A stretch of DNA of 64,000 nt from Micromonospora sp. NBC_01699 (GTDB lineage Bacteria > Actinomycetota > Actinomycetes > Mycobacteriales > Micromonosporaceae): assembly GCF_036250065.1 (NCBI RefSeq), contig NZ_CP109199.1, positions 1,426,001-1,490,000 on the forward strand, written 5' to 3'. How positions within the stretch are numbered: the stretch's first letter is position 1; each line of letters opens with the position of its first letter. This document shows, one piece after another, positions 45,983-55,435 of the stretch. Made by a program: the position numbers and the translations under genes. The notes under the pieces are model-generated. The model was not told the DNA's origin. It ran no database searches and saw nothing but the letters and a program-made list of their open reading frames with translations.

Positions 45983-46675
45983 GTGTCCGCCGATACCCGC
46001 GCCGACCTGCCAACCGGGGCATCCGTGCCCCGGTTCGCCCCCGGCCGGCTGATCGTGCACCGCAACGTACGCCGGGGCCGGATCGGTTGGGCCAGGACGG
46101 CGCGGGTGGTCAGCGACGACGAGCGGGGTCTGCTGGTCTGGATCGCCCGCAACTCCCCGGTGGCCAGCGAGGTCACCGCCGACGGCCGGGGCATGCGGGC
46201 GATGCCGTTCACCGAGTGGCTGGCGAACCCGTACCGGCTGGCCACCGGTGTCTGGGCGGGCCCACCGCTGTTGAAGTTCCTGCCCGCCGGCGCCGACCAC
46301 TCGGTGTGGTGGTTCCGGGACACCACCGACCGGTTCGCGTACTGGTACGTCAACCTCGAAGAGCACGGTGTGCGCTGGGACGACGGTGACCTGGCCGGGG
46401 TGGACGTGGTCGACCAGGATCTCGACATCCTGGTCGAGCCGGACCTGAGCTGGCACTGGAAGGACGAGGAGGAGTTCGTCGAGCGCCTCGCCCACCCGGA
46501 CGGCTACTGGGTGCCGGACGAGGCGGCGGTCCGCGCCGAGGGTCTGCGGGTGGTACGAATGATCGAGGCCGGTGAGTTCCCGTTCGACGGAACCTGGCGC
46601 CACTTCGTACCCGATCCGGGGTGGACCGTGCCGGCGTCGCTGCCGGCGGGTTGGGATCGAACCCCGGTCCGCTGA
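45983..46675 (+). CDS. DUF402 family protein
   Basis: 230 residues. DUF402 features: FAPGRLIVHRNVRRGRIGWA, YWYVNLEEHGVRWDDGDLAG, VDVVDQDLDILVEPDLSWHW and DEEEFVERLAHPDGYW. Relatives include nucleoside di/triphosphatases (NtdP-like) and FomD. It could be a phosphohydrolase; substrate unknown. 18 bp after proS, so likely co-transcribed. Confidence 0.85.
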   Translation: MSADTRADLPTGASVPRFAPGRLIVHRNVRRGRIGWARTARVVSDDERGLLVWIARNSPVASEVTADGRGMRAMPFTEWLANPYRLATGVWAGPPLLKFLPAGADHSVWWFRDTTDRFAYWYVNLEEHGVRWDDGDLAGVDVVDQDLDILVEPDLSWHWKDEEEFVERLAHPDGYWVPDEAAVRAEGLRVVRMIEAGEFPFDGTWRHFVPDPGWTVPASLPAGWDRTPVR

Positions 46676-46759
46676 GCCCGGCCCTCGACCGACGGGCGGG
46701 CCCGCCCCGAACCGACCGGCGAGTCCGGACAAAATGGCACTACCAAGAGTGTCGTGCTC

Positions 46760-46788
46760 CTGACAGAAGCGGTAAAACCGCAGGTCAG
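46760..46788. promoter_or_regulatory. Nested palindrome upstream of the accessory operon
   Basis: CTGAC (46760-46764) / GTCAG (46784-46788) surrounds a perfect hairpin GCGGT-AAA-ACCGC (46769-46781). It is 45 bases before the operon's first GTG and could be an operator, or a terminator for the DUF402 gene. Confidence 0.4.
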
Positions 46789-46833
46789 AGCCCCTAGGCT
46801 CCGTGCAAGTCGTCCCCCTGGTGGGAGGTCCCC

Positions 46834-47400
46834 GTGGCCGACCAGATCACCTCCTGGGCAGACCTGCGGGCGAGAGCGCCCGACATCCTCGCCCGGGTAA
46901 ATGCCAACGCCCGGCTGGGCCGCGCCGCCGCGGTCAACCCGCTGCTCGCCATCGAGCGGTTGGACTACACCATCGACCCGGAGATCAGGCCGGCCCTCGC
47001 CGACCAACTGAGACTGGGCCCCGGCCCCGCCGGCCGCCTCGCCGACCTGCGCCGGGAGGTCGCCGGCCTGGCCGGTCGGACGGTCGACCCGGACGACGCC
47101 GAGGACGTCGGGCGACTCCTGGTCGAACTCGGGATCGTCGCCGTGGCACCGGGGCCGGTGCTGGACACCCGACCGCCGCGCTGGCACCCCGGCGGTCCCG
47201 GCCCGGACCCGTTGCGTCGCCTGCGCGACCAGCATCCGGTGCTGGCACCGCTGCTGGACTACCGGTGGATCTCGGCCGCCCGGCCCCGGTTCGCACCCGT
47301 TCGGACCTTCGACGCGCTGCTCGACGGCGAGCGGATACCGCCGGTGACCGCCGTGGTCGCCCGGCTGCGCCGCACTACGCCACCGGTCGCCGAACTGTAG
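46834..47400 (+). CDS. Accessory operon protein 1, helical, function unknown
   Basis: 188 residues from GTG 46834 with GGGAGG upstream. No family recognised. The first 110 residues look alpha-helical with regular leucines (WADLRARAPDILARVNANAR, AVNPLLAIERLDYTIDPEIR, LADLRREVAGLAGRTVDPDD); the rest is Pro/Arg-rich. No signal peptide or membrane segment. The next gene starts 16 bp later, so it is the likely first gene of the operon at 46834-54689. Confidence 0.65.
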   Translation: MADQITSWADLRARAPDILARVNANARLGRAAAVNPLLAIERLDYTIDPEIRPALADQLRLGPGPAGRLADLRREVAGLAGRTVDPDDAEDVGRLLVELGIVAVAPGPVLDTRPPRWHPGGPGPDPLRRLRDQHPVLAPLLDYRWISAARPRFAPVRTFDALLDGERIPPVTAVVARLRRTTPPVAEL

Positions 47401-47415
47401 TGCGGAAGGAGGACC

Positions 47416-50400
47416 ATGGTCGACACACACGGGTACGACGTGGTGGTGGTGACGGCACCGGCGGTCCTGCGCAAGGCGCTGCGGGCGGCCTGGAAGTCGG
47501 CCGGCTGCGGTGGCACCGACACCGGCGGGGTGCCCGCGTACCTGGCGATTCCGGCCGGGCTCGACCTCGGTGGCCGGACCACCTCCGGCGGGCAACTGGA
47601 GATCCCCCAGGACCGGCTCGACGCCCAACTGGTGCCCGCGATCGACGGCTGCCGGCTCGTCTTCGGGCTGATCGTGCAGGTGACCCTCGCCGACCCGCCG
47701 GTCCCGTCCGCCCGGTTGCTCGACCTGACCGCGACCGTACGGGCGGAGGTGCCGATCGGGCTGCTGCCGGGCTCCCTCGACGTCGGGATCCGGCTCGACG
47801 GGCTGCCCCGAAGCGCGGTCGACGCGGGCGTCAGCGGCGGTGATCCGATCGCCGGCAAGCTCGACCAGATCCTCGCCGAGTACGTCCACCTCGGGTACGA
47901 GAACGGCGGACCGGCCGGGCCCGTCCACGCCGGTGTGCCGACGATCCCGCACCAGCGGGACGAGTCCGAGCAGGCGCTCTCCGTCGGCGGCAACGGCTAC
48001 CTGCTCGACACCCACCTGGAGTGGTACGACGACCAGAGCCAGCCCGGCTACCGGATCGAGGTGAGCCGACCCGACGCCGGACACGTGCTGATCAGCCTCC
48101 CGGGCTACCTGCGGATGTTCCGCATAACCGGATCCGGCGGCGGTGGCGGGGCGGGGTCCGGTGGCGGGGCGGGATCCGGATCGGGGTTCGGTGCGGGGGC
48201 GGGAGCCGGGAACGGGAGCGCGGCGGGGCCGGTGTTGGCCGATCCGATGGGGGTCGAGGCGCGGTTGGAGATCCTTGCCGGGGTGGAGGCGCCGCCGGGG
48301 GCGTACACGATCCGGTTCGACACCGCCGTGGTGACCGCCGGTCCGATCCGGCCGGCGCCGGGGCTGGAGGGCACCAACTACACGCTCAACAACGGTGCCC
48401 TGTTCGGACTCCTCGAAGCCGCCCTGCGTACCCGGCTCGGTCAGCAGGGGCGGGACCTGGTCCAGGGCTTCGGGCCGCGTACCGTGCCGGTGCCGACCGC
48501 CGACCAGGTCGCCACGCTGATCGGTGACCTGGTCCACGCCGACCTGGCCGCCCGGGGCCCGCTGGCGCTGTGGACCCCGCAGGCCGGTGGGGAGCGCTTC
48601 GAGGCGCACGACGTGGCCACCCGGGTCCGGGCCGACGCACTCGTCATCGCGGTCAACGCCGCCGACGACGCGGACATCACCGCGATCGGCCACCCGGTGC
48701 CGGCCGGGCGGGACTTCGCCATCATGCTGGCCGCCCCGATCGTCCGGGCCGGCATCGAGGCCGCCCGCGCCGCCAACGGCTGGGCCGACGCCGACCTGCC
48801 CCGCCGGGTCGAGCGCGACGACATCCGGGCCGACGTACGCGACCTCGACGTCGAACCGGTGGACGGGGCGATCCGGATGACCGGGGCGCTGACCGTGGTC
48901 GACGCGGTCCTCGGCAGCATCGACGTGGACGCCACCTTCCGGGCCGAGGTCGGGCTGCGCTGGAATCCCGATGGCGCGCTCGACCCCGACGGGATGCAGG
49001 CGATGGAGAACCAGGTGATCGGCGACCCGGACGTCGACTCGGCGGAGTCGACCGCGTTCTGGCTGGTCGCGCTCATTCTCGCGGTGGTGAGCTGGGGAGC
49101 GGGCAGCATCCTGGTCGGGATCGTCATCGTGGTGGTGGCCGCCGTGGTCACCGGGATCGCCGCCGGGATCGGCAGCTCGACCCGGGTCGACCCGGTCACC
49201 GGCGCGGTTCGCGGCCTCACCGGCTGGCCCCCGGAGCTGGCCCGGATCGGCCGGGTCCGGCCGGTCTTCCACAACCCGATCACCATCGCTCCGGGCGGGC
49301 TGGTCCTCGCCGGCACCCTGGAGGTGGTCAGCTCCCGCGCCCAGACCCCGGTGCTCGCCGCCCGGGGCGGCGGCTCCTACACCGGCACCGCCGGAACGGC
49401 GCTCACCCTGACCGCCGGGCACACCGCCCCGGCCGCCGTCTACTCCTGGCGAGCCGGCGACGGCAGCCCGGCGGTGGCGACCCGCGACCTCACCCACACG
49501 TACGCCGCCGGCGGCGTCTATCTGGCCGCGCACTCGCTCACCGTCACCGAGCCGGGCGGCGCCACCAGCCACAGCTTCGCCCTGGTGCACGTGGCGAACG
49601 CGCCGCCGACCGTGGACGCCGGCCCCGACCTGGTGGTCGACGAGGGCGAACTGGTCACACTCGTCGGCCGGTTCACCGACCCGGACTGGACCGACACGCA
49701 CGAGACCACCTGGAACTTCGGCGACGCGTCCGCGACCGAGCCGGGCACGGTGGCGCAGACGAACAAACCGCCCCGGTGCGAGGGGACCAGCACCGTCCGG
49801 CACGCCTGGTGCGACAACGGGATCTACGAGGTCACCCTGCGGGTCCGGGACCGCAACGGCGGCATGGCCACCGACAGCCGGCTGGTCACCGTACGGAACG
49901 TGCCGCCGACCGTGGACGCCGGACCGGAGCTGTTCACGTACCCGAGCACGGTGTTGACCCTGACCGCCACCTTCAGCGATCCGGGCTGGTCCGACACCCA
50001 CACCGCGACCTGGGCGTTCGGCGACTGCTCGGCGCCGATCCCGGCGGTGGTGACCGAGGTGCACCAGGCACCCGCGAGCCGGGGCAGCGCGGTCGCCGCG
50101 CACCGGTACCCGGACCGGGGCACCTTCCTGGCCCGCTGCACCGTCGCCGACGACGACGGCGGGGTGGGCGGTGACGAGGTGGTGATCCGGGCGGTCGACG
50201 TGGTCAACCGGCACTTCGAGGACGGCTTCGCCCAGCGCAGTACCGGCGCGGTGGCGATCGGCTGGGAGCCGTACCTGCGGACGCCGACGGTGGCGAACAC
50301 CGCCCCCCGGCACACCGCGAGCAACTTCGTCGTACACGGTGGACGGCGGGCCCAGGGCCTCCAGGTCGGCGCCCGCGAACGGGTCGGGGTGTACCAGCGG

Positions 50401-51234
50401 ATCGGTGCCAACCCGGACTGGTCCTACCAGGTCACCGCCTGGTACGACCTGGACCAGGCCAGGCCGGGAACGGCCCGGCTCGGCGTCGACCCGGCCGGCG
50501 GCGACGACCCGGCCGCCGACACCATCGTGTGGAGCGACGGTACGGCGTCGCAGCGCTGGAGCCCGCTGACCGTACGGGTCACCGCCCGGTCGGCCGCGGT
50601 CACGGTCTTCCTGGAGGCGTACCGCCCGGACGGGCGGGACCCGAGTCCGGGGGCCGAACGGGTCTGGTTCGACGACGTCGAACTGCTCGCCGCGCAGCCG
50701 TACTGCCCGCCGGCCCCGCCGCCGCTGACCGAGCTCACGCTCGACTTCGGGGACCGGGAGCGGGGCAGCCAGTATCCGCCGCAGTGGACCGAGCAGGGCT
50801 TCGCTCTGCGTACGCCCGATGGTGGTGGTCGGGCGGTGGTGGCGCTGGACCCGCCGGCCGGCGGCAACGCGTTGCGGCTCGGTCTCGGCCTGGTGCTCCG
50901 GCTGCCGCGTCCGGCCGAGCGGATCGCCGTCACCCTGCTCAACATCGGTGGCCGCCCGCTGTCGCTGGTCGCGGTCGACGCGGCCGGCAACATCCGGGAC
51001 CGGGCCCAGGTGCCGCCGGCCACCCCGGCGCTGCCGACCGCCGCCGTGCTGACCGGGCCGGGGATCGTCGCGGTCCGGATCGACGGCCGTGGGGTGGAGG
51101 CGTTCCTGGTTCGCTGCCACGTCGTACTGGAGACACCCGTGCCGCCCGGCCCCCGACCGCCGCCGGGTCCCGCCGGGTACGCCGGACCCGACCGGAAGGG
51201 GCCGGCGTGGCTGAGTCGAGGAGGTTCACCATGA
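47416..51234 (+). CDS. Large protein with TULIP/P47-like front half, three PKD-like domains and C-terminal beta modules
   Basis: 1272 residues, no signal peptide. The start TYGYD-like sequence MVDTHGYDVVVV resembles the opening of clostridial P47/OrfX proteins; residues 1-240 and 275-640 have a strand-rich pattern fitting two TULIP (lipid-binding) modules joined by a Gly/Ser linker (239-272). A hydrophobic stretch at 546-590 (LVALILAVVSWGAGSILVGI) is like the one in P47 proteins. Three PKD-like domains follow (about 643-730, 731-830, 831-928, with NAPPTVDAGPD and NVPPTVDAGPE starts), then a jelly-roll carbohydrate-binding-like domain (930-1094) and one more beta module (1104-1242). The TULIP call is tentative. 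ATG start has AAGGAGGA upstream; the stop overlaps the next ORF (ATGA). Confidence 0.7.
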   Translation: MVDTHGYDVVVVTAPAVLRKALRAAWKSAGCGGTDTGGVPAYLAIPAGLDLGGRTTSGGQLEIPQDRLDAQLVPAIDGCRLVFGLIVQVTLADPPVPSARLLDLTATVRAEVPIGLLPGSLDVGIRLDGLPRSAVDAGVSGGDPIAGKLDQILAEYVHLGYENGGPAGPVHAGVPTIPHQRDESEQALSVGGNGYLLDTHLEWYDDQSQPGYRIEVSRPDAGHVLISLPGYLRMFRITGSGGGGGAGSGGGAGSGSGFGAGAGAGNGSAAGPVLADPMGVEARLEILAGVEAPPGAYTIRFDTAVVTAGPIRPAPGLEGTNYTLNNGALFGLLEAALRTRLGQQGRDLVQGFGPRTVPVPTADQVATLIGDLVHADLAARGPLALWTPQAGGERFEAHDVATRVRADALVIAVNAADDADITAIGHPVPAGRDFAIMLAAPIVRAGIEAARAANGWADADLPRRVERDDIRADVRDLDVEPVDGAIRMTGALTVVDAVLGSIDVDATFRAEVGLRWNPDGALDPDGMQAMENQVIGDPDVDSAESTAFWLVALILAVVSWGAGSILVGIVIVVVAAVVTGIAAGIGSSTRVDPVTGAVRGLTGWPPELARIGRVRPVFHNPITIAPGGLVLAGTLEVVSSRAQTPVLAARGGGSYTGTAGTALTLTAGHTAPAAVYSWRAGDGSPAVATRDLTHTYAAGGVYLAAHSLTVTEPGGATSHSFALVHVANAPPTVDAGPDLVVDEGELVTLVGRFTDPDWTDTHETTWNFGDASATEPGTVAQTNKPPRCEGTSTVRHAWCDNGIYEVTLRVRDRNGGMATDSRLVTVRNVPPTVDAGPELFTYPSTVLTLTATFSDPGWSDTHTATWAFGDCSAPIPAVVTEVHQAPASRGSAVAAHRYPDRGTFLARCTVADDDGGVGGDEVVIRAVDVVNRHFEDGFAQRSTGAVAIGWEPYLRTPTVANTAPRHTASNFVVHGGRRAQGLQVGARERVGVYQRIGANPDWSYQVTAWYDLDQARPGTARLGVDPAGGDDPAADTIVWSDGTASQRWSPLTVRVTARSAAVTVFLEAYRPDGRDPSPGAERVWFDDVELLAAQPYCPPAPPPLTELTLDFGDRERGSQYPPQWTEQGFALRTPDGGGRAVVALDPPAGGNALRLGLGLVLRLPRPAERIAVTLLNIGGRPLSLVAVDAAGNIRDRAQVPPATPALPTAAVLTGPGIVAVRIDGRGVEAFLVRCHVVLETPVPPGPRPPPGPAGYAGPDRKGPAWLSRGGSP

Positions 51235-51317
51235 CCGACACTTCGTTCCCGCCGACGGCGACCCCGTCGACGCCGACCCCGAGGATGCCGACTCCACGGA
51301 CGGGGGTGCCGCGATGA
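51231..51317 (+). CDS. 28-residue Pro/Thr-rich peptide
   Basis: MTDTSFPPTATPSTPTPR... encoded by 28 codons with a strong AGGAGG site seven bases upstream. Its ATG overlaps the stop of the large protein and its TGA overlaps the start of the prenyl synthase (ATGA at both ends). It could be a real small protein or a coupling device; the Thr-Pro pattern has no known function. Confidence 0.55.
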   Translation: MTDTSFPPTATPSTPTPRMPTPRTGVPR

Positions 51318-52309
51318 CGGTGATCGGCGCGGCGACGGTGGACGACCGGTGGCTGACCAGCGTGCGTACCCGTACCGCGCTGGCCGACCTGGACCGGCGG
51401 ATGAAGGACGCGGTGGCGTCCCGCGACCCCGGACTGTGGACCATGGCCACCGCCCTGCTGGACCGGGGCGGCAAACGGATCCGGCCGGCGTTGCTGCTGG
51501 TCGCGGGGGAGTTCGGCACGTTCCGACCGGACCGGTTACTGGACGCGGCCGCCGCCCTGGAACTGCTGCACCTGGCCACGCTCTACCACGACGACGTGCT
51601 GGACCGGGCCGTCACCCGCCGGCACGGGCCGACCGCCAACGCCCAGTGGGGCGACTCGGCCGCCCTGGTCACCGGCACGTTCCTGGTGGCGCGGGCGAGC
51701 GCGCTGATCGCCACCTTCGACGACGGGTACGGCCGGGAGGCCGCGCGGGCACTGGTGGAACTCTGCACCGGCCAGCTCCGGGAGACCGAGAACGCCTTCC
51801 ACACCGGCCTGACCGAGGCCGAGTACATGGAGATCATCGCCGGCAAGACGGCCACCCTGTTCGAGCTGCCGTGCCGGTTGGGTGCCCGGCTGGCCGGCGC
51901 ACCGGACCGGATCGTCACCGCCCTGTCCCGGTACGGCCACGACCTGGGCATCGCGTTCCAGCTCGCCGACGACGCGCTGGACGTGTGGGGCAGCGCCGAG
52001 CGGCTGGGCAAGTACCCGCTCGGTGACGTCCGGGAGGGCGTCTACACGCTGTCCGTACTCCGGTTGCTGGCCCGTGGCACACCGGCCGCGCAACGGGTAC
52101 GGGAGCTGCTGCGGGTCCTCGAACCCGGTGCCACCGAACTGGCCGAGGTACGCAGCCTGGTGCTCCGCTCCGGGGTGGTGGACCAGGTCCTCGGCGAGGC
52201 CCGGGAACTCGCCACCCGCGCCCGTGGCCACCTCGCCGCCCTGCCCGCCGGACCGGCCCGCGAGTCGCTGTGGCGGCTGGCCGACCACGCCATCGCCCGG
52301 GCCGGTTGA
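51314..52309 (+). CDS. Polyprenyl diphosphate synthase
   Basis: Condenses isopentenyl diphosphate with allylic primers into a longer prenyl diphosphate. 331 residues, normal length, both aspartate-rich motifs intact: YHDDVLDRA (first motif, residues 91-99) and FQLADDALD (second motif, about 215-223), with GGKRIRPALLL and [14 protein letters not shown] between. Chain length cannot be read from sequence. ATG overlaps the 28-residue ORF, and the reductase starts 1 bp after the stop. Confidence 0.9.
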   Translation: MTVIGAATVDDRWLTSVRTRTALADLDRRMKDAVASRDPGLWTMATALLDRGGKRIRPALLLVAGEFGTFRPDRLLDAAAALELLHLATLYHDDVLDRAVTRRHGPTANAQWGDSAALVTGTFLVARASALIATFDDGYGREAARALVELCTGQLRETENAFHTGLTEAEYMEIIAGKTATLFELPCRLGARLAGAPDRIVTALSRYGHDLGIAFQLADDALDVWGSAERLGKYPLGDVREGVYTLSVLRLLARGTPAAQRVRELLRVLEPGATELAEVRSLVLRSGVVDQVLGEARELATRARGHLAALPAGPARESLWRLADHAIARAG

Positions 52310-52310
52310 G

Positions 52311-54689
52311 ATGGCCGGGGAGACCGGCCCGGAACGACTCGACGCGGTGGTGGTGGGCGCCGGACCGGCGGGGTCGGCGGCCGCGTACCACCTGGCCCGG
52401 CGGGGGCGGCGGGTGCTGCTGGTCGACCGGCGGGACTTCCCCCGGGAGAAGAGCTGCGGGGACGGGCTGACCCGGGACGCGGTGCGGCTGCTGGCCGACA
52501 TGGGCGTACTGGAGGAACTGACCGGGGCGGCGCGGGTCGCCGGGGTCCGGGTCCGGATGCGCGGGCGGGGCACCCGCGACTTCCGGTACGACGGGGACGG
52601 GCCGCTGTCGTACGGGATGGTGGTGCCCCGGCTGGAACTCGACGCGAAGCTCTGCCACCGGGCGGTCCGGGCCGGTGCGACCCTCTGGCCCGATGCCCGC
52701 GCCACCTACCTGCTCGGCGAGCCCGGTGCGGTACGGGGCGTGGAGATCGAGCGGGAGGGGCGGCGGGTGGCGGTCCGCGCCCCGGTGGTGGTCGCCGCCG
52801 ACGGGGCCGCGTCCGGGCTGGGCCGGCAGGCCGGACTCCGTACCGGTGTCCGGGAGCAGACCGGTTTCGCCGCCCGTGGCTACTTCGCCGACGTGGCGGA
52901 CCTCGACCCACTGCTGGAGATCCACCTGCCGCTGTTCGACGTGACCGAACGGCACCTGCTGCCCTCGTACGGCTGGGTCTTCCCGGTCGGCGGCGGCGTG
53001 GTGAACGTCGGTGTCGGCCTGTTCGACCCGGCCCACCGGGACAGCGTCCGCAGCCTGTACGACCGGTTCGTGACCGACCTGATCGCCACCGATCGCAGGT
53101 TCCGCCGGGCCCGCCCGGTGGGCCGGATGAGCGGGGCGCCGCTGCGGCTCGACTTCGACCCGTCCCGGTGCGGGGTGCCGGGGTTGCTGCTGGTCGGCGA
53201 CGCCGCCGGGCTGGCGAGCCCGTTCACCGGCGAGGGAATCAGCTTCGCCCTGGAGTCCGGCACCCTGGCCGCCACCACTATCGACGCCGCGCTGCACGAG
53301 TCCGCCGACGACCCGATCGACCCCATCCCGTACGCCCGCGAGCTGGGCGCCCGGCACGCCGGCCAGTTCGAGACCGGCCGGCACGCGGCCCGCCGTTACC
53401 TGCTCGCCTGGCGGGTGCTGGAGTCGACCTTCGACGACGACCGGCCGATCTTCACCCTGTGCCGGCGGTTGGCGCTGCATCCCGACGGGGCCCGAGCCGA
53501 ACGGATCCTCGCACCGTTGCCGCCGCTGGACCCCGGCATCGGTCGGGCACTGCGCCGGGACCTGCTCGCCGTGGCCGACCTGCTCGCCGGCTGCGTACGC
53601 GACGACTGGCCGATGTTCGTCCGGCTGTTCGCGGTCGACCGTGACCCGGACACGGTTCCGCTGCGCCCGGCGGTGCTCCTGCTCGCCGCCGGGTACGTCG
53701 GCGGCCGCCGCAACCCGGTCAGCCACGCGCTGGCGGCAGCGATGGACCTGGGCCTGCTCGCCGGCCTGGCGATGGACGGTGCCGGCCCCCCGCCACCGAC
53801 CCGCCCGACCCTCCCCGCCCCGCGCTCCGCCGCCGAACGCCTACCCGGTCGCCGGGGTGGTGAGGCCACCGCGGTGCCCTGGGGGAGCCGGTTCGCCGTA
53901 CTGCTCGCCGACTACCTGCTCGCCCGCGCGTACGAACTGGCCGCGCGGGGCGGGGCGGCGGTGGTGACGGAGTTCGCCGACGCACTGACCGCGAGCTGCG
54001 AGGGTCGGGCCCGGGAGCTGCGCGCCGAGCACGGCGGCGGCGTGGGTCTGCGCGGTGGGACGGTCGCCGCCGGTCCGCGCCGGCGGGGCGGACCACCACC
54101 CGGTACGGCCGACGACCGGCCCGCCACCGGTGTACCTCCCGGCGCGGCGACGGCGGCGGTCGGGACCGACTGGGCGATGCGGGTGGAACAGCTCAGCGCC
54201 CGGATGGCGACCTCCTTCGAGTTGCCCTGCCGGCTCGGCGGGCGGCTCGGCGGGGCGAGCCCGGCGGTGGTGAACGCGCTGGCCGCCTTCGGGCGCCACC
54301 TGGGGGTGAGCTACGCGCTGGCCGACGAGCTGTGGGCGGCGGACGCCGGCCGTCCCGGTTCGTCCGGCTTTCCGGGCCTGCCCGGCCTGCTACCGGGCTT
54401 CCAAGATCTTCACAGCCGACCGCAGGGCGACGGCCGGCAGTATCCCCACGGCCAGGAGCAGGTCGACGGCCGCCAGCATCTTCACGGCCGGCAGCGTCCG
54501 CACGGTCAGGAGGGTCTGCCGGGCCGGCAGCGTCCTCCGGAGGACTCGCTCGCGGAGCTGGCCCGGCTGGTCGACGAGCACGCCGAGCGGGCCCGCGAGG
54601 CGCTCGCCCGGGTGCCCGACGGCCCGGCCCGGGACCTGCTGTACCGACTCGCCGAACGGCCGGTACCCGGCCCGGCCGACGGCTCGTGA
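52311..54689 (+). CDS. Geranylgeranyl-reductase-like flavoprotein fused to a degenerate prenyl-synthase domain
   Basis: 792 residues. The N-terminal part (1-430) is an FAD-dependent reductase: [20 protein letters not shown] (GxGxxG), [35 protein letters not shown] and [20 protein letters not shown], as in enzymes that reduce prenyl double bonds. The rest resembles the synthase at 51314: [18 protein letters not shown] (about 528), [19 protein letters not shown] (630) and [18 protein letters not shown] at the end. It lacks the first aspartate motif; the second reads ADELW instead of ADDALD, so it should not be a synthase. Residues 681-743 hold a Gln/Gly/His-rich repeat in place of catalytic sequence. 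Confidence 0.88.
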
Positions 54690-54961: not shown

Positions 54962-55435
54962 GTGGCCGTAAAGATCCGGCTCCTGCGGATGGGTAAGATC
55001 CGCAACCCGCAATACCGCATCGTCGTCGCCGACTCGCGTACCAAGCGTGACGGCCGTGCGATCGAGTTCGTCGGCATCTACCAGCCGAAGGAACACCCGT
55101 CGATCATCCAGGTCAAGTCGGAACGGGTCCAGTACTGGCTGTCCGTCGGCGCGCAGCCGAGCGAGGCGGTCCAGCGTCTGCTGGAGAAGACCGGCGACTG
55201 GCAGCAGTTCAAGGGCCTGCCGGCGCCGCCGCCGCTGCTGGTGAAGGACGCGCCGGCCGACCGTCTCGCGATCTACGAGGCCGAGTCCAAGGCCGCGGCC
55301 GGGGTTGCCGACGCGCCGGCCGCCAAGCCGGCCAAGAAGGCTGCCAAGGCGGCTGCGCCGGCCGAGGCCGCGCCGGCCGAGGAGCCGGTGAAGACCGAGG
55401 AGCAAGCCGGTGCCGCCTCCGGCGAGCAGGCCTGA
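54962..55435 (+). CDS. rpsP: 30S ribosomal protein S16 with long tail
   Basis: 157 residues, about twice the minimal S16. The core [20 protein letters not shown], then [20 protein letters not shown] and [20 protein letters not shown] is conserved; the last 50 residues are an Ala/Pro/Lys/Glu-rich extension ([20 protein letters not shown]). Such tails are common in actinobacteria. GTG 54962, first gene of the rpsP-khpA-rimM-trmD-rplS cluster. Confidence 0.97.

Follow-up and report, generated by a model that had tools for sequence, protein, structure and literature searches.

The window, a 64,000-nucleotide stretch (G000:C1:1426001-1490000) of the single-contig 8.28-Mb genome of a member of the Micromonosporaceae, carries an accessory operon of four genes, all on the (+) strand, located between a side with ffh, tRNA synthetase and DUF402 genes and a side with rpsP, rimM and trmD. 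The last two genes of the operon encode an intact trans-polyprenyl diphosphate synthase of 331 aa (51314..52309, +) and a 792-aa fusion protein (52311..54689, +), in which a flavoprotein of the geranylgeranyl reductase family is joined to a degenerate prenyl synthase, termed here the pseudosynthase half. They are preceded by genes for an orphan 188-aa protein and an orphan large protein of 1272 aa. We tentatively regard the locus as an accessory isoprenoid-lipid operon centred on a tethered synthase/reductase pair, a reading whose chances we place a little short of even.

The synthase and the reductase-pseudosynthase fusion

The synthase matched PF00348 at an E value of 3.1e-56 (190.8 bits, cut-off 27) and carries two DDxxD motifs and a GGKR motif, which are present in all nine loci compared (eight operons and one locus of Rhodococcus described below); the intact prenyl synthase noted in the first-pass annotation of this DNA was therefore confirmed. 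Its closest match of solved structure in the PDB, nonaprenyl diphosphate synthase (E 1.2e-51), makes a long chain likely, and the Ala located five residues before the first DDxxD is presumably another sign of a long-chain enzyme. The predicted product is all-trans polyprenyl diphosphate, probably of long chain.

The open frame of the last gene reaches back to 51882; the start at 52311, however, is the one it has in common with the other two sampled genomes of this genus (the remaining five operon loci are from Micromonospora, including M. lupini). The reductase half (residues 1 to ~403; 52311..53520, +) carries FAD and family motifs. Residues 11-324 scored 196.1 bits against TIGR02032, above the cut-off of 158.8, which places this half in the geranylgeranyl reductase family, and the nearest PDB match was the digeranylgeranylglycerophospholipid reductase 3oz2 (E 1.7e-32). 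The model of the menaquinone reductase MenJ was also hit (E 3.3e-52), at 177.8 bits against a cut-off of 700, and for none of the specific equivalog models in the NCBIfam listing did the half reach the cut-off. The reductase motifs looked for are kept in 9/9 loci, with SFGWIH for SYGWVF and GAAAG for GDAAG in Rhodococcus.

The first-pass annotation had described the last gene as encoding a prenyl-reductase-like flavoprotein, which holds for this half, and had overlooked the C-terminal half (residues ~405-792, start placed by eye; 53523..54686, +). A prenyl-synthase match over the cut-off was found in the fusion (PF00348, E 4.8e-9, best stretch 514-573), and alignment with the neighbouring synthase in six of the eight operon loci showed that residues ~405-792 correspond to a whole synthase in degenerate form. 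Neither DDxxD nor GGKR is present in the pseudosynthase half, while FELPCR is present in all nine loci including Rhodococcus. The pair of DDxxD motifs with GGKR that marks an active synthase is thus missing from the C-terminal half of the fusion at each of the nine loci, and this half has the make-up of an inactive partner, a synthase homologue without catalytic motifs.

In a phylogenetic tree of seven of the nine pseudosynthase halves and seven intact synthases, the former made up a single clade (100/99) and the latter grouped at 55/29 only; long branches were flagged. The pseudosynthase half was at first taken for a copy of the synthase beside it; this origin became uncertain once Rhodococcus had joined the tree and the intact synthases grouped at that low value.

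The ratio of nonsynonymous to synonymous substitution rates (dN/dS) was estimated for the window paired with each of the operon-bearing genomes G048, G010 and M. lupini; the values are rough, and the pseudosynthase half is rich in gaps. They were 0.37-0.57 for the pseudosynthase half (0.22-0.57 over four pairs), 0.21-0.35 for the reductase half, 0.10-0.29 for the synthase, 0.37-0.44 for the large protein and 0.30-0.64 for the 188-aa orphan, with 0.07-0.26 for rpsP as a comparison. All values being below 1, the pseudosynthase half looks kept, if loosely. These values bear on the alternative that the pseudosynthase half is a functionless, decaying remnant and the fusion a plain reductase. Loss of the catalytic motifs, the long branch and dN/dS of up to 0.57 would suit such decay, but the half has been kept in two families with FELPCR invariant, its C-terminal region is recognisable in the aligned halves, and dN/dS was below 1 in each of the four pairs tried; we consider a remnant very improbable. 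Production of a reduced isoprenoid lipid by the operon, as proposed in the first-pass annotation, is a prediction with a good basis in the families to which the synthase and the reductase half belong.

Distribution of the operon

The operon is real and is accessory in the Micromonosporaceae. When 300 genomes of the family were searched with residues 1-640 of the large protein at a threshold of E 0.001, 16 passed, and eight were counted as real (main piece E <= 1e-147). The other eight matches (E 6.5e-7 to 9.9e-4) were discarded, seven of them lying over a Gly-rich stretch and one (G025) at residues 428-512. The large protein, carried by all three sampled genomes of the window's genus, was seen in two genera of the family only. 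At the seven other loci, as in the window, the 188-aa orphan, large protein, synthase and fusion genes all occupy the same site between the DUF402 gene (45983..46675, +, from a profile scan of the flank genes) and rpsP (54962..55435, +; PF00886, E 1.8e-24), which form the left and right borders of the accessory block. Co-occurrence of the large protein with the prenyl genes, which the first-pass annotation had set as a test of its proposal, was observed, with synthase and fusion beside the large protein in 8/8 genomes.

Twelve genomes chosen among those without the large protein were examined at rpsP, and the operon proteins gave no match at this site in any of them. The nearest flank gene before rpsP was the DUF402 gene in nine and a tRNA-synthetase gene in three, at a distance of 300 bases or less in 10/12, ~1.05 kb in G009 and ~1.8 kb in G008. 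The gap between DUF402 and rpsP in G008 (L087:1600-3408) is occupied by other frames, of which one looks by eye like a transcription regulator and one like an isochorismatase; the DUF402-rpsP site may therefore be a general place for gene gain.

An N-terminal profile of the large protein, run against 394 genomes of the class, matched the window genome only, the seven other positive genomes being absent from this sample or missed, and no match to the N-terminal region was obtained in a plasmid search. A DNA probe (53434-53814, one base out of frame, detecting near-identical DNA only) matched 11 of the 300 family genomes, namely the same eight operon genomes and, weakly, G235, G015 and G267, at whose loci none of 12 queries matched.

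The large protein and its weak likeness to P47

The large protein (47416..51234, +) contains three PKD stretches, the best at residues 728-824 (49597..49887, +; Pfam PKD_4, E 2.4e-29), followed by a C-terminal region without assignment. A strong hydrophobic stretch lies at residues ~542-585 (49039..49170, +; limits by eye), where the best 19-residue span starts at residue 565 with a Kyte-Doolittle value of 3.0 and the best spans start at 560-567; it is possibly a hairpin. No signal peptide was seen by eye at the N-terminus. The length of 1272 aa, the internal hydrophobic stretch, the PKD modules and the missing signal peptide all agree with the first description of this protein. The Gly-rich stretch (~30 residues, about residues 239-270, 48130-48225) is present in the window copy and in none of the seven other aligned copies.

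That description had also given the protein a P47-like opening, a point on which the comparisons were divided. No family match was obtained: the front 640-660 residues generated no Pfam hit at E up to 10 in any of the eight members, PF06597 of P47 included, a profile of the front region did not match the PDB, and a search of the window's genome with PF06597 was negative. When profiles were compared with those of nine P47 proteins encoded in four actinobacterial genomes, residues 1-640 (47416..49335, +) were weakly and colinearly similar to P47. Among 93 segments of 100 columns taken from three proteins (global mean 4.2, sd 3.9), the first segment of the large protein had the top global score, 21.2, and was aligned to the N-terminus of P47, and columns 441-540 were second (16.3), aligned to P47 columns 274-386 in its C-terminal part. 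Column shuffles of the N-terminal segment scored as high in 0/60 cases globally and 1/60 locally, and a reversed P47 alignment reached a maximum of 11.0 over 58 segments of the large protein, compared with 21.2. In a joint MAFFT alignment, the hydrophobic stretch coincided with that of some P47 proteins, as did the last strand. Taken with the opposing results given below, these similarities make it somewhat probable that the large protein is related to P47/TULIP proteins. P47-family genes themselves were found two or three side by side in 4/200 genomes of one actinobacterial family (G386, G733, G777 and G790; L056-L065).

The Rhodococcus pair and serine peptidase genes

A search of the plasmid collection with the fusion at E 1e-10 returned one match, on plasmid pRB98 of Rhodococcus oxybenzonivorans, spanning residues 26-440. 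The gene row there (L093:8795-14076) encodes a 108-aa protein, an S8 peptidase, a 150-aa protein, a synthase and a 712-aa fusion, the last two in overlapping genes. Identity to the window proteins was 38% for the fusion, over almost the full length of the window fusion (E 6.7e-128), and 45% for the synthase. Transposase genes are located several kb away on both sides of the peptidase-synthase-fusion row, and no relative of the Rhodococcus fusion was found in viral contigs. The 150-aa protein was reminiscent of SCP2 sterol carriers; as it had no match in Pfam (E up to 10) or the PDB (E up to 1), this identity is not claimed.

The occurrence of the pair in Rhodococcus without the large protein would fit an alternative in which the pair alters how long or how saturated the side chain of menaquinone is, the large protein being a bystander with a separate function. 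The MenJ match of the reductase half, though far below its cut-off, and the closeness of the synthase to nonaprenyl diphosphate synthases point the same way. Against such quinone tailoring, the large protein and the pair stand together at all eight operon loci in two genera, and 292/300 family genomes are without the large protein, so that the operon as a whole is not a general quinone pathway. We regard this alternative as fairly unlikely.

In the five Micromonospora loci, two extra genes are located between the large protein and the synthase, encoding a small protein and a 530-aa peptidase (L034:10809-12683; matching places in L008, L009, L035 and L036). The N-terminal domain of the peptidase is of the NAL1 type (PF25608, E 1.2e-7; NARROW LEAF 1 in the PDB, E 3.5e-6), and its His, Asp and Ser sites, judged by eye, are presumably intact. 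Both genes were found in 5/5 Micromonospora loci, 0/3 loci of the window's genus and 0/12 empty sites. The small protein upstream resembles, by eye, the N-terminal region of the peptidase. In two settings, then, the pair is accompanied by a serine peptidase, from a different family each time: the NAL1-type enzyme in Micromonospora and the S8 enzyme in Rhodococcus. These linked peptidase genes of relatives had escaped the first-pass annotation.

These peptidases, together with the PKD modules, are what would be expected if the large protein were an adhesin-like product, either released or displayed at the surface, that the peptidase matured and for which the pair supplied a lipid anchor or small molecule, as in a specialised-metabolite or surface-protein operon. 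The large protein has no signal peptide by eye, and the peptidase is missing from all three loci of the window's genus, both of which speak against this role. We judge it unlikely.

Other features of the locus

Upstream, the operon is neighboured by ffh, a class-II tRNA synthetase gene read as proS and the DUF402 gene, and downstream by rpsP, rimM and trmD; its genes are separated, 5′ to 3′, by 15, 79 and 1 bases. The first-pass annotation had counted five genes between the ffh/proS block and rpsP. Four co-directional, conserved genes stood, and the fifth, a 28-codon frame (51231..51317, +), probably encodes no conserved peptide. This frame fills the gap between the large-protein and synthase genes, its start overlapping the stop of the former and its stop the start of the latter; the gap in G048 is too short to contain it, and the corresponding place in G010 is taken by a 22-residue frame of unrelated sequence.

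The first gene of the operon (46834..47400, +) encodes the 188-aa orphan, which has an orthologue at each of the seven other operon loci (53-87% identity). It generated no hit in Pfam (E up to 10) or NCBIfam and none in phages, and the PADLOC defence models matched none of the five proteins scanned, the orphan included. An Rfam search of 46400-47000 gave no match. Between 46500 and 55000, no promoter-like site was found, and two terminator-like sites were both on the other strand.

Proposed mechanism

The steps below combine what is encoded with what we infer about the product, the complex and the carriage of the lipid. In the first step, the intact synthase, whose family is clear from its motifs, would form an all-trans polyprenyl diphosphate, probably a long-chain one. 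In the second, the dead synthase half of the fusion, evident in its domain make-up, may pair as a non-catalytic partner with the intact synthase, so that the reductase half would be held at the source of the chain and the product partly saturated during or soon after synthesis. In the third and weakest step, the large protein might bind or escort the hydrophobic product through its P47/TULIP-like front half, with the PKD and C-terminal modules possibly acting as anchoring or interaction parts; that the large protein binds or delivers a reduced lipid had already been suggested in the first-pass annotation and is kept here as a conjecture. In relatives, the serine peptidase of the same gene row may process a large-protein-like partner, and the three loci of the window's genus are without a peptidase.

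Several observations weigh against this reading. In Rhodococcus, synthase and fusion occur with no large protein beside them, so that the pair does not depend on the large protein everywhere. Among the domains recognised in the operon by Pfam, there is no prenyltransferase to use the product. Evolution is faster in the pseudosynthase half than in the reductase half, with dN/dS of 0.57 versus 0.22 to G048. For the P47 relationship, the full-length comparison was not significant (P 0.13), with 4/60 shuffles as high locally and 22/60 globally; segment 621-720, in the PKD region, had the top local score (22.9) and was fourth globally (14.4); and one P47 subgroup used alone left the N-terminal segment outside the top six, while the other put it first. 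AlphaFold models of the N-terminal region were unusable, at mean pLDDT of 30.5 and 34.9 (inputs: the window region with eight orthologous rows, itself included, and the M. lupini region with eight P47 proteins added).

If the tethered pair operates in this manner, only a few genomes of the family would be equipped to make the resulting lipid in this way, and a candidate carrier would be encoded beside the pair. A testable ligand could then be predicted for a bacterial TULIP-like protein, and the pair, needing only two genes, would offer a compact bacterial model of channelling.

Comparison with known systems

Like TIGR02032, MenJ and archaeal digeranylgeranylglycerophospholipid reductase, the reductase half belongs to the geranylgeranyl reductase family, over whose cut-off it scores and in which it matches 3oz2; it differs in the C-terminal pseudosynthase and in falling below the specific equivalog cut-offs. 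Two-component (heptaprenyl and hexaprenyl) synthases have a non-catalytic partner subunit. The window operon shares an intact synthase with such long-chain and two-component enzymes, and the non-catalytic partner proposed here is modelled on the latter, but in the window this partner is a degenerate homologue of the synthase that is joined to a reductase.

The best NCBIfam match of the synthase was NF041169, the family 2 encapsulin cargo polyprenyl transferase, at 209 bits against a cut-off of 450. Cargo of this kind, compared with the portion of PMC8346489 available, was rejected at that score, and the window synthase is without the long N-terminal extension of the cargo transferase. An encapsulin 2A-like gene occurs ~690 kb from the operon (G000:C1:2166238-2167593; best piece 328 bits, under the cut-off of 380). 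The scanned flank genes of the operon included no encapsulin; the genome was searched with the 2A model only, and not with the 2B model.

P47 of Clostridium (PF06597), according to an excerpt of PMC6791001, is one of the TULIP families and has homologues across bacterial phyla. The large protein resembles it in weak colinear profile similarity and in a similarly placed hydrophobic stretch, and differs in having no Pfam match for its front region, in being ~170 residues longer and in carrying extra PKD and C-terminal modules. The main text of PMC7020563 does not mention Streptomyces, Actinobacteria, prenyl, PKD or terpen, and that of PMC10821996 does not mention fusion, fused or polyprenyl synth. 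Among the listed titles and abstract openings of the literature, mostly outside subscription papers, no described reductase-pseudosynthase fusion was found.

The pRB98 operon of Rhodococcus agrees with the window in its synthase and reductase-pseudosynthase genes and in the order of the two; it has no large PKD protein, and a subtilase stands in place of the NAL1-like peptidase.

The closest functional parallel may be the recruiting protein, or small subunit, of plant geranylgeranyl diphosphate synthase (GGPPS). In rice, as summarised in part of PMC9399743, a catalytically inactive recruiting protein heterodimerises with the synthase, making it more efficient and drawing it into a geranylgeranyl reductase complex. 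Both systems comprise a dead synthase homologue, an active synthase and a geranylgeranyl reductase, but here the dead synthase and the reductase form one polypeptide, in actinobacteria, and their pairing with the active synthase is a proposal from sequence. The best reading of the fusion is that the pseudosynthase half would dock the reductase onto the active synthase, as in the plant recruiting system. A fuller version, which we offer as a doubtful extension, is a hard-wired bacterial counterpart of the plant recruiting complex, in which the dead synthase-reductase fusion captures the synthase and channels the growing chain into saturation, a dedicated P47/TULIP-type carrier then takes it over, and a peptidase is an exchangeable fourth component. 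Should the pseudosynthase half tether the reductase to the synthase, bacteria and plants would share one way to steer isoprenoid flux, by a fusion in the former and by a separate recruiting protein in the latter.

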